Positions 20,016-23,647 of a stretch of 48,699 nucleotides of DNA are shown here, one piece after another. Location of the stretch: the NCBI GenBank assembly GCA_030537255.1, contig JAUNOE010000001.1, positions 75,397-124,095 on the forward strand. Direction: 5' to 3'. This stretch comes from Coriobacteriia bacterium. GTDB lineage: Bacteria; Actinomycetota; Coriobacteriia; Coriobacteriales; Eggerthellaceae. A program made the translations under genes and the position numbers. A model generated the notes under the pieces. It was given only the letters and a program-made list of their open reading frames with translations. It did no database searches and had not been told where the DNA came from. Position 1 is the stretch's first letter. Each line of letters begins with the position of its first letter.

Positions 20016-21665
20016 CTATTCGACGCGAAGCTTTTCCCGGATTGCTTCCACTTCTTCCCTCAGATTCCTGTCTTCATTGATCTGTTCGGATATGACCTCA
20101 TACGAATGCATGATGGTGCTGTGGGCACGTCCGAAGCCGTCCCCGATTGCCGCAAAGGTACAGTCGAGCATCTCACGACATAGGTAGATGGCGACACTGC
20201 GGGGGAGCTTGATCTTCTTGCTTCGGCCGGGCCCCGTGAGCTCCTTGTCGCTTACTCCGTAGAAGGAACAGATGGCGTCTTTGATGGCGTCCATGGTTAC
20301 CTTGTTCGAGGTGTCGCTGGCAAAGTGGTTCGAAAGCATCTGCTTTACTTGCTGCTTTGTCACCTTGTGCTCCGGGTCAAGCTTCAGGGCAAACACGACG
20401 TTGGTGACCGCGCTTTTGAGCTCACGGACGTTCGAGCTGGAGTTTTCGGCAATGTAGTCAAGGACGTCATCGGTCAGCTCAAGGGGGAAGTCTTCGTCTT
20501 CCTGGCATTCCATGAGGAAGCTCTTGGCGATATTTCGCTTTGTTTCGGCGTCGGGCGGATGCACATCGATGGTGGCACCCGAGTTGAATCGCGACACGTA
20601 ACGTTCGTCCAGGTCGATGTTCTTAGGCGCGCGGTCCGCGCTGAATACGAACTGCTTTCCCTTGGGGATGAGTTCGTTGAAGATGCGGAACAGGGTGTCA
20701 AGCGTCTGCTGTTTTCCCTGCAGGGCCTGGATGTCGTCAATGAGCAGTACGTCCAACTCCCGGAAGGATTCCTCAAAGCTGCGGAAGCTCTTGGTGATGG
20801 CCGCGTTGCTGTATTCGTTGACCATCTCCATTGCGTCGATGTAGCGAACCTTCAGCGTGGGGTAGTGCTCTTCCAGGTAGTTGCGGATGGCGCAGAGCAG
20901 GTGTGTCTTGCCCACTCCACTCCTACCGTAGATAAACAGCGGGTTGAGTGCGGAGTTTCCGGGCTTGTCGGCTACTTCCACGGCCATGGAGTAGGCCATT
21001 TGGTTCGAGGCTCCTGCAACGAAGTTGCCGAAGGTGAGCTTGGTTTCCCCTGTTGTGGTCCGCCTTGGCTGAAGCGGCTCCGCTGGCTTCTCTTTGGGTT
21101 CGGTCTCCTCCGCCGTAGACTCATCTTTTGCCGGCTGCTCGTATTCCGAGGGTTTCACCTGAGACCGGGACGGGCTCTTTCCGGCCGTTGCCTCTTTGTT
21201 TTTGGGGGGTGCTGTCGGCTTTTGATCCTCCTTCTGCTCTGGCTTGTCCATTGCTGGAGCGTCGTCTTGCGGCAGTGGCTGGGGGGCCGCTTCGATGGGA
21301 TTCTCCTTCGTTTCCGACAGCTTCGGCGCCCCTTCCTTAGCCGCGTCGCTTTTCTTCGGGGACTCTGCCACTGCGGGTGTGCTTGTTGCTTCGGAAGCTT
21401 CTGAGGCCTGGGTTGTGTCAACCTCAATCTGGATGATCCAGTTGTCTCCTCCGTAGAGCTCGCTCATGGCTTGACGGATGTCGTCGGTGTAGTGGTCTTC
21501 GATCCAATTCTTGATGAAGGCGTTATCTGAGGTCAGCATGGCGAACCCGCCTGCCGCCGCCTGGATTTGCACGCGCGAAAAGAAGGCGTCGATCTGGGGT
21601 GCGCTGTTGGAATGGTAGGTTTTCAGCTGGGCGATGAGTTTCGCTCGGGCTTCTTCGAGATCCAC
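20016..21665 (-). CDS. dnaA: Chromosomal replication initiator protein DnaA
   Basis: DnaA binds oriC and melts it. The 549-residue protein has domain I (residues 1-80, QIDAFFSRVQIQ, FIKNWIEDHYTDDI), an unusually long Glu/Lys/Pro-rich domain II (about 85-205), the AAA+ domain with LTFGNFVAG, Walker A GRSGVGKTHL (247-256), Walker B VLLIDDIQAL, a sensor with SRFNSGATIDV, and domain IV from about 453. Domain IV ends with a signature reading FGRAHSTIMHS (511-521), where actinobacterial DnaA usually has FGRDHTTVxxA; the Asp and one Thr that contact the box are Ala and Ser here. The start is GTG at 21665 with GGAG upstream. It follows the GHKL gene by 20 bases. Confidence 0.97.
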   Translation of the reverse strand: MDLEEARAKLIAQLKTYHSNSAPQIDAFFSRVQIQAAAGGFAMLTSDNAFIKNWIEDHYTDDIRQAMSELYGGDNWIIQIEVDTTQASEASEATSTPAVAESPKKSDAAKEGAPKLSETKENPIEAAPQPLPQDDAPAMDKPEQKEDQKPTAPPKNKEATAGKSPSRSQVKPSEYEQPAKDESTAEETEPKEKPAEPLQPRRTTTGETKLTFGNFVAGASNQMAYSMAVEVADKPGNSALNPLFIYGRSGVGKTHLLCAIRNYLEEHYPTLKVRYIDAMEMVNEYSNAAITKSFRSFEESFRELDVLLIDDIQALQGKQQTLDTLFRIFNELIPKGKQFVFSADRAPKNIDLDERYVSRFNSGATIDVHPPDAETKRNIAKSFLMECQEDEDFPLELTDDVLDYIAENSSSNVRELKSAVTNVVFALKLDPEHKVTKQQVKQMLSNHFASDTSNKVTMDAIKDAICSFYGVSDKELTGPGRSKKIKLPRSVAIYLCREMLDCTFAAIGDGFGRAHSTIMHSYEVISEQINEDRNLREEVEAIREKLRVE

Positions 21666-21685: not shown

Positions 21686-23017
21686 TTATGCTTGACGTGC
21701 GGCCTCAAGGCCTTGCTGGGTAAGGTGGCGCTCCTTGCCGATTTCCTCGACCAGACCTGCCTGGGTGAGTCTTTCGAACGAGTTGTGGACGGAGGACACC
21801 GAAATACCTGTTTCACGTGAAACAGCGGTGACTCCAGCAGGCCCTGCCTCCAAGGCCTTTAGGATGATTCGATCATTGCTGGTTATCTTTATGCCACTTG
21901 CGGTTTTTTGTTTACTGCTTGATGGTAACGGTGCGCCTGGCGTTGCGGGGTGTTCCATAAGGCTGATAGTTACCACAGCGCCCGAATTGATGTTGTCTTC
22001 GATCGTGATGCTGCCATGGTTGAAGCTCAGGGCGTCTTTTACCAAGGGGAGACCGGAGCCGACGCCTCGAATGTATTGCTTCATAGGCTCGGTGGCGCTG
22101 GTTACGCCAGGCATCTGCACAAGGGACTTGTCTTTGATGCCGGGACCCTGGTCTGTGAATCGGATGGTGTTTCCCGCATCGAGGATCGAGACCACGACTT
22201 CCTTGAACTGCGCATGGATGAAGTTTTCGGATACTTCTCGGATCACCGAATAAGGTATGCGGCCTCCCGTCGCCTGCGAATGTTGGTAGGTCAGGGATGC
22301 GATTCGCTCGATGAATTCGTGCGTCGGGCCTCCGGGTATACGGATGACGCGTGGTGCGCTGTGAAGGTCGTCGTAAATGGCGACTCGAGCTGAGGTATCG
22401 ATGTTCGAGTAGTCGAAGTCGTCGGCAGGCTTTGTTGGTGATGTCCGCGCTGGTGCAGGCGTGGGTACCGATGCAGGTGCTGCACCTTCGGGAGTAAAGC
22501 CGGGCGTCCAGCCTTGCTGCTGGGGTTGGATGACGCCCCCTTGCGGTTGTTGCATTGGTTGGATGGGGGCCTGAGGGTGGCCAGGGACCTGCGGGTAGCC
22601 GAAGGCCTGTGGGTAGCTAGGCCAGGATCCTGGTGTGGGCTGTTGGGCTTGCGGATAGCTGGGGGTTGCAGGGAAGGCTTGCTGCTGAGGGGGCATGTCC
22701 TGACCTTGGGGGTAGCCATACCCCGGCCAAGCCTGGGTGGGGTGGTAGCTGGGTTGCCGCATGTCCCAAGCCTGCTGACCCGACCAGGCTTGGCCGGCGT
22801 GGGGTGGGTTGCCGTCTGTCGCGGCCCGTCCTGGCTGCGGTTGCCCCGTGGTCTGTTCGGGGATGGCCCTGCCTCCGTTTATGGTCATTGCTCCGTTTGC
22901 CTGATCCCAGTCGGGCGCTGCCTCTTCGACCGTCGAGCCACCCATGGATAGGTTTCCCCTGGGTGGTAGCGCTTGGTCTTCTGGTGTCGTTTCGGCATTG
23001 TTGGGTGCTTGGTCCAT
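21686..23017 (-). CDS. GHKL ATPase with Pro/Gln-rich N-terminus and C-terminal winged helix
   Basis: Residues 1-200 are low complexity, rich in Pro, Gln, Gly and Tyr, with repeated YPQA/YPQ-like units around 92-150, and are probably disordered. Residues about 230-355 form a histidine-kinase/anti-sigma-type ATPase domain: N box REVSENFIHA (260-269), G1 FTDQGPGI (287-294), G2 GVGSGLPLVK (318-327). There is no phospho-accepting His domain and no membrane segment. Residues 378-440 form a winged helix (NDRIILKALE, VSSVHNSFERLTQAGLVEE) whose helix-turn-helix includes VSRET, encoded by a parS site. It lies 20 bases upstream of dnaA on the same strand. A role in origin or dnaA control is inference from position. 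The ATG at 23017 has a weak Shine-Dalgarno. Confidence 0.85.
   Translation of the reverse strand: MDQAPNNAETTPEDQALPPRGNLSMGGSTVEEAAPDWDQANGAMTINGGRAIPEQTTGQPQPGRAATDGNPPHAGQAWSGQQAWDMRQPSYHPTQAWPGYGYPQGQDMPPQQQAFPATPSYPQAQQPTPGSWPSYPQAFGYPQVPGHPQAPIQPMQQPQGGVIQPQQQGWTPGFTPEGAAPASVPTPAPARTSPTKPADDFDYSNIDTSARVAIYDDLHSAPRVIRIPGGPTHEFIERIASLTYQHSQATGGRIPYSVIREVSENFIHAQFKEVVVSILDAGNTIRFTDQGPGIKDKSLVQMPGVTSATEPMKQYIRGVGSGLPLVKDALSFNHGSITIEDNINSGAVVTISLMEHPATPGAPLPSSSKQKTASGIKITSNDRIILKALEAGPAGVTAVSRETGISVSSVHNSFERLTQAGLVEEIGKERHLTQQGLEAARQA
21809..21824. other. parS site 3 (perfect), inside the GHKL gene
   Basis: TGTTTCACGTGAAACA. It encodes the VSRET stretch (residues 399-403) at the start of the winged-helix recognition region, so here the parS-encoded peptide is part of a folded domain. 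Confidence 0.93.
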
Positions 23018-23048
23018 GCTGCTTCGATTCCGTTGTGTTTGTTAGGCC

Positions 23049-23054
23049 AGTATC
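23049..23054 (-). promoter_or_regulatory. Possible -10 of the GHKL-dnaA operon
   Basis: GATACT on the minus strand lies about 32 bases upstream of the GHKL start. No good -35 is seen, so this is only a candidate. Confidence 0.3.
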
Positions 23055-23099
23055 ACTGCGAGCCTAGCTGCGTTTTCGTCATTCGCCTTCAAGGCTACG

Positions 23100-23340
23100 C
23101 CGTCAAATTTCAGGGTTTTCGTCGAAATTCGGCCTATGTTTTGTCGAAAACCGAAAGAAACGTCGAAAACTCTGTCGTTTTCGCTCAAGATTCTATCGAG
23201 CTTTTAGTCAATTTTCAATTTTTCGACAGAGTTTTCGAGTTTTCGACATTTGAGTTCTCTACAACTTTCGATATTTCGACTGAGTTTTCGACAGAATGTA
23301 GAAAAGTCGAAAGAAATATCGAAAAACAAGGAGCACGGTC
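23100..23340. other. Probable oriC: cluster of variant DnaA boxes TTTTCGACA
   Basis: The gap sits at the strand switch between the dnaA and rpmH gene blocks. Perfect copies of TTTTCGACA lie at 23220-23228, 23240-23248 and 23285-23293 (plus) and 23142-23150 (minus). Near copies lie at 23161-23169 (minus, TTTTCGACG), 23273-23281, 23305-23313 and 23317-23325. In all, 12 TCGA cores lie in about 210 bases. The element differs from TTATCCACA at two positions; no canonical box is seen. AT-rich patches such as AGTCAATTTTCAATTTTTC (23207-23225) could melt. The call rests on position and repeat density; the dnaA-dnaN gap could also take part. Confidence 0.7.
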
Positions 23341-23453
23341 AAAAAGACCCTTCGCCTTTCGCCTTTTCGGCCTTTAGGGCCGATTCTTTCGTCGCTGTTT
23401 TCGGGGCGTATTCGGTGACTTCCGAACAACCATTAATAAAGTTTAGAAATTCG

Positions 23454-23481
23454 TTGACAGGCGACCCGTCACTTGTATAAT
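23454..23481 (+). promoter_or_regulatory. rpmH promoter
   Basis: TTGACA (23454-23459), a 16-base spacer and TATAAT (23476-23481), both perfect hexamers, lie 31 bases upstream of rpmH. It should drive rpmH-rnpA-yidD-yidC. Confidence 0.85.
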
Positions 23482-23512
23482 TTCGAATTTACGAGAACTG
23501 AAAGGATAGGCA

Positions 23513-23647
23513 ATGAAACGCACTTATCAACCCAACAACCGCAGGCGTGCAAAGACTCATGGTTTCCGTGCTCGTATGGCAACCAAGGGTGGCCGCGCCG
23601 TCCTGTCCGCCCGTCGTGCTAAGGGCCGCAAGCGCCTTTGCGTCTAA
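23513..23647 (+). CDS. rpmH: 50S ribosomal protein L34
   Basis: This 44-residue basic protein begins [19 protein letters not shown] and ends [10 protein letters not shown], the L34 pattern; the last residues are normally RLTV or RLSA, so the Cys is a small variation. It has AAAGGA upstream and is followed 15 bases later by rnpA, its standard neighbour. Confidence 0.97.

Follow-up and report, generated by a model that had tools for sequence, protein, structure and literature searches.

The window considered here, a stretch of 48 699 nucleotides from an incomplete metagenome-assembled genome (a draft 81.6% complete) of a Coriobacteriia bacterium of the family Eggerthellaceae, contains a switch between two divergent sets of genes, all named by resemblance. 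The genes to the left of the switch (a gene for a GHKL-type ATPase with a winged helix-turn-helix, GHKL-wHTH, and then dnaA, dnaN, recF, gyrB and gyrA) run leftward, and those to the right (rpmH, rnpA, yidC, jag, rsmG, parA and parB) run rightward. Between them lies an intergenic region with a putative origin of replication (oriC; Table 1), where the AT fraction reaches 0.70, compared with 0.36–0.50 in the genes; no trio motif could be established there. There are eight parS sites, spread over 34 kb (4314–38277) around this region, and six of these are perfect copies of TGTTTCACGTGAAACA. In 150 of the 157 Coriobacteriia loci that were compared, the gene immediately upstream of dnaA encodes a homologue of the GHKL/HATPase_c-wHTH protein, which is a candidate regulator of initiation.

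Table 1. Features in and around the putative origin (positions in the window; G013 is a related genome described in the text)
Feature	Position	Strand	Remark
dnaA	20016..21665	-	Pfam: domain I, AAA+ domain III, domain IV
Helix-turn-helix stretch GDGFGRAHST, DnaA domain IV	20116..20144	-	
Codon GCC (Ala), position of E. coli Asp433	20124..20126	-	alignment to E. coli
GHKL-type ATPase with C-terminal winged HTH	21686..23017	-	between origin and dnaA
parS TGTTTCACGTGAAACA	21809..21824	.	inside the GHKL-wHTH gene
Seven further parS sites	4314, 16776, 25732, 26509, 32923, 32968, 38262		
Intergenic region with putative oriC	23018..23512	.	AT up to 0.70 at 23201-23250
DnaA box TTTTCGACA, perfect	23142..23150	-	exact match
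DnaA box near copy TTTTCGACG	23161..23169	-	place and orientation kept in G013
DnaA box TTTTCGACA, perfect	23220..23228	+	place and orientation kept in G013
DnaA box TTTTCGACA, perfect	23240..23248	+	place and orientation kept in G013
DnaA box TTTTCGACA, perfect	23285..23293	+	G013 counterpart TTTTCGACC, same orientation
DnaA box-like TTTTCTACA	23297..23305	-	position 6: T in window, A in G013
DnaA box near copy TTTTCGATA	23317..23325	-	place and orientation kept in G013
Promoter-like TTGACA-16-TATAAT of rpmH, at origin edge	23454..23481	+	sequence reading
rpmH	23513..23647	+	divergent from dnaA operon

The intergenic region carries a cluster of 9-mers that resemble DnaA boxes, and the counts given in the first-pass annotation of this DNA are borne out. 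The four perfect copies of TTTTCGACA that it reported are the only ones in the window and all fall within 23100–23340, its several near copies correspond to one-mismatch copies at 23073 (plus strand) and at 23161, 23297 and 23317 (minus strand), the 12 TCGA tetranucleotides in 23100–23340 are an exact count (the window mean is 2.0 per 241 bp), and the canonical box TTATCCACA is indeed absent, with no match within one mismatch in that interval. Four copies of TTTTCGACA were reached in none of the 100 shuffles of the whole window, and at least four boxes with G at position 6 in none of the 1000 dinucleotide shuffles of 23100–23340 (shuffle mean 0.04). The 81.6%-complete draft genome contains 19 copies of TTTTCGACA altogether, 4 of which lie within 152 bp at the cluster. 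TCGA can be ruled out as an independent motif because 11 of the 12 occurrences belong to the TTTCGA/TCGAAA context, that is, to box-like sequence. The perfect copies agree with the canonical TTWTNCACA at T1, T2 and T4 and at A7, C8 and A9, and all four depart from it at position 6, where G replaces C.

The same region is present in G013 (contig JAUMVJ010000003.1; likewise an incomplete metagenome-assembled genome), the DnaA of which is 68% identical to that of the window. Between the two origins, six boxes correspond in both place and orientation, with G at position 6 in five cases, and the non-box sequence diverges (295 of the 476 aligned bases are identical overall). Among the perfect boxes of the two genomes, 7 of the 9 have G at position 6. 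The first-pass reading of the repeats, as DnaA boxes in which G has replaced C at this position, is supported. The divergent genes, the eight parS sites and the boxes aligned one for one with those of G013 make the site look like an origin; the adjacency of dnaA and rpmH and a box cluster above chance (four perfect and four near boxes) point the same way, and 23018–23512 is, by these features, very probably oriC. The GC skew, which had been proposed as a check, gives a rough fit only: the cumulative curve in the window falls to about 18–19 kb and then rises, so that it turns a few kb from the box cluster, with local gene effects blurring the turning point. A search of the 81.6%-complete genome for a second cluster of TTDTC[C/A]ACA sites found none, only 54 scattered matches.

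The product of the neighbouring dnaA gene is clearly a DnaA by its domains (PF11638, PF00308 and PF08299, all above cut-off), despite an altered helix 5. The motif FGRAHST, noted earlier in domain IV, is present, the protein reading IGDGFGRAHSTIMHS. In the alignment to E. coli DnaA, positions 433 and 435 of the window protein are Ala and Ser, and its turn is one residue shorter; the helix 5 signature R-D-H-[TS]-T, with Asp433, is replaced by R-A-H-S-T. The protein is also unlike its relatives at other positions of domain IV, e.g. 423 and 405. A second, lower-scoring stretch that matches DnaA domain IV was seen in one relative (G078:C13:81789-81977).

The closest view of the change comes from two members of one genus: G015 combines the helix FNRDHSTIMHS with TTTTCCACA boxes, and G013 combines FNRSHSTIMHS with TTTTCGACA boxes, so that at the listed helix 5 contact positions (432–436, 438 and 439) the sole difference between the two is Asp versus Ser at 433. 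Position 423 is also unlike in this pair (Lys or Ala) and is variable through the family. Another relative with Asn433, G048, which is independent of the window lineage, has G at position 6 in 3 of its 4 boxes.

The comparison of domain IV and origins across Coriobacteriia that the first-pass annotation had suggested was carried out on 157 loci (DnaA and upstream DNA) from Eggerthellaceae and other families of the class, and links the loss of Asp433 with the loss of C at position 6. For each locus, boxes were scored in the 500 bp upstream of dnaA with the highest density of TTDTCNACA-like sites, whatever the base at position 6. In the 106 genomes with Asp433, this position is occupied by C in 178 boxes, A in 134, G in 5 and T in none; the 51 genomes without Asp433 yield A 75, G 38, C 10 and T 10. 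Since shuffling produces 2.6 and 1.3 G boxes, respectively, by chance, the Asp genomes have practically no G boxes, and those of the non-Asp genomes are real (Fisher 3e-17 for G and 3e-24 for C; these values ignore ancestry and are not a measure of the strength of evidence). The small number of chance G boxes also leads to the rejection of base composition as the source of G6, and the GC fraction of the window origin (0.42) is close to the median of the Asp genomes (0.41).

The bases that replace C differ between lineages. G dominates in two only, the window with G013 (Ala and Ser; G share 0.76, above that of each of the 106 Asp genomes) and G048 (Asn; 0.66), and it is also frequent in one further lineage, an Asn clade of 13 genomes in family f3, probably Coriobacteriaceae (0.42). 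The G share is 0.24 in family f2, probably Atopobiaceae (Ser/Thr433, mostly Ala435; A 38, G 11, T 9, C 5), and 0.0 in two His and two Asn lineages, the His and some Asn lineages having mainly A. The earlier notion that the Ala/Ser combination means G is therefore too strong, given that other non-Asp lineages mostly took A or an A/G/T mixture. Among the f2 genomes read (loci L238–L261), the helix is RSHAT or RTHAT, without Asp433 and with Ala435 (RSHTT in one genus); position 6 of the boxes is degenerate (A, G or T), and clear boxes are few. Loci L183–L197 (f3, probably Collinsella) form an Asn433 clade with TTTTC[A/G]ACA boxes. Sites reading TTTTCNAAA, with A at position 8, are common in this clade as well, and the member that was aligned has Ser/Thr at residues 438/439. 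At position 7, the ratio of C to A is 70:317 with Asp and 5:115 without it (uncorrected for ancestry, the second count covering the main non-Asp groups only); C at this position, common in the presence of Asp433 and rare in its absence, agrees with the reported contacts of D433 at position 7. No second Ala433 lineage was recognised among pattern matches in 339 genomes of the order (translated letters, one spacing), and none of the 10 pattern matches fetched from 296 genomes elsewhere in the phylum (one spacing, codons not starting with G) is a DnaA. The matches of the GRLFWRSHST type that were tested in families f12 and f17 proved not to be DnaA either.

On a FastTree phylogeny of DnaA domain III, with domain IV excluded, ten changes between Asp and non-Asp are found, Asp having been lost about ten times. 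The share of C at position 6 is below that of the nearest Asp relatives in all 10 non-Asp lineages (Wilcoxon p = 0.001), and the share of G is above it in 6 of the 10 (p = 0.12), the nearest-Asp controls being partly common to several lineages. Binary tests on independent pairs, which are underpowered, were not significant for either the presence of G (3.3 for, 1.2 against; median p 0.63) or the absence of C (3.7 for, 0.5 against; median p 0.25). Taken as a comparison of sequences, it is well supported that the loss of Asp433 accompanies the loss of C6, whereas the gain of G is the outcome in some of the non-Asp lineages, strongest in that of the window. The co-evolved pair proposed in the first-pass annotation holds up in this part, both within the genus and across the ten lineages, and fails in another: the Thr-to-Ser change, to which the box change had also been tied, occurs family-wide, and 70 Asp433 relatives with Ser435 carry C and A boxes (C 124, A 91, G 4), which rules it out as the driver. 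The one-residue-shorter turn is ruled out likewise, with C/A boxes in 76 Asp genomes that have such a turn.

The reading we favour, with a probability of roughly 0.74, is that the window contains an oriC whose G6 DnaA boxes are bound by the DnaA encoded next to them, and that the loss of Asp433 led to a pair of changed specificity. Residues 432–435 of helix 5 make base-specific contacts (PMC5043019), and the helix that begins at 434 lies over TnCACA in the major groove (PMC5742627). In most relatives, Asp433, with which recognition helix 5 begins, goes with C or A at position 6; both bases offer a major-groove amino group, from which a carboxylate could accept a hydrogen bond. In the window lineage, the replacement of Asp by Ala (Ser in G013) would have removed this acidic constraint, and with it the advantage of C6, after which the boxes may have shifted to G, giving a DnaA–oriC pair with altered specificity. 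D433 is described as conserved in all classes and as contacting the bases at position 7, not base 6 (PMC8235120); a carboxylate that reaches across the amino groups of steps 6 and 7 would account for the effects at both positions. In Epsilonproteobacteria, A is the only substitute for C that is tolerated at position 6, and a box with G at this position, TTATAGACA, is unbound, although TTATAGACA also differs at position 5 (PMC5043019). A broader reading, which we hold tentatively and at somewhat less than even odds, is that position 6 must carry an amino-bearing base (C or A) as long as Asp433 is present and becomes open to keto bases once Asp433 is lost, a switch that would have been crossed repeatedly in Coriobacteriia, giving mutually incompatible DnaA–oriC pairs, with the window (Ala433, G boxes) as the most extreme.

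Other accounts of the link between protein and boxes are less probable. It is unlikely, though worth weighing, that DnaA without Asp433 simply ceased to read position 6, G being a product of mutational drift and not the preferred base: the mixed bases in f2, the A in the His and some Asn lineages and the conserved box with T in the window and A in G013 are what such relaxation would leave, but G prevails in the perfect boxes of the window and G013 and in G048, and is retained in five aligned boxes although their flanks diverge. That the helix and box changes are unrelated, with other changes in DnaA or lineage history producing an association through shared ancestry, is improbable; the non-significant pair tests and the divergence of the window DnaA at 423 and 405 speak for it, and they are opposed by the drop of C in every non-Asp lineage, by the indifference of position 6 to Ser435 and the short turn when Asp is present, and by the identity of G013 and G015 at all the listed helix 5 contact residues except 433.

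Two further accounts concern the nature of the cluster. The TCGA-rich repeats could be sites for another factor, either the GHKL-wHTH protein, the gene of which adjoins the cluster, or a TCGA methylase of a sequestration system, and the density of TCGA would fit; this is very improbable given that TCGA tracks the 9-mer and that in relatives the same wHTH gene and dnaA are preceded by TTTTC[C/A]ACA clusters, so that the 9-mer varies with DnaA and not with the neighbour. Least credible of all is a true origin elsewhere, with the cluster serving as a titration site or a regulator of dnaA. The offset of the skew turn and the incomplete coverage of the genome leave some room for it, against the strand switch, the rpmH-dnaA-dnaN-gyrBA context, the parS sites and the failure of the search for another cluster.

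The region is best seen, from its sequence and those of its relatives, as an oriC in which a changed DnaA box is paired with a changed recognition helix, the extreme example of a change that recurs in Coriobacteriia. Across bacteria, DnaA and its box are treated as nearly fixed. An order with about ten losses of D433, and a drop of C6 each time, amounts to a natural experiment on concerted change in an essential initiator and its origin that the cell survives. It opens the DnaA recognition code to tests by single substitutions and offers candidate orthogonal origins. Origin finders built on TTATCCACA will miss origins of the window type.

Among the known systems, E. coli oriC (TTATCCACA/TTWTNCACA; PDB 1J1V) shares with the window a cluster of 9-mer boxes beside replication genes, and its DnaA shares Arg399, Arg432, His434, Thr436 and His439; the window differs in the change of Asp433 to Ala, T435S, the turn shorter by one residue and the change of C6 to G in the box. 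DnaA of M. tuberculosis (PDB 3PVP/3PVV), which among solved structures is nearest in sequence, shares the short turn and reads FGRDHTT, but, unlike the window, it retains the Asp, and its box, quoted in PMC5043019 as YWRTCCACA, retains C at position 6. In Thermotoga maritima oriC, as quoted in PMC10225481, a species-specific box is likewise combined with diverged contact residues, but that box is a longer, unrelated 12-mer, AAACCTACCACC, whereas in the window a single base of the 9-mer is changed. Epsilonproteobacteria (TTCAC core; PMC5043019) resemble the window in having a class-specific box change that is attributed to the start of helix 5 in DnaA domain IV; there, however, Asp433-His434 is retained, residues 435, 438 and 439 vary, and the box has T at position 5 and C (A tolerated) at position 6, whereas in the window Asp433 itself is gone and position 6 is the one that has changed.
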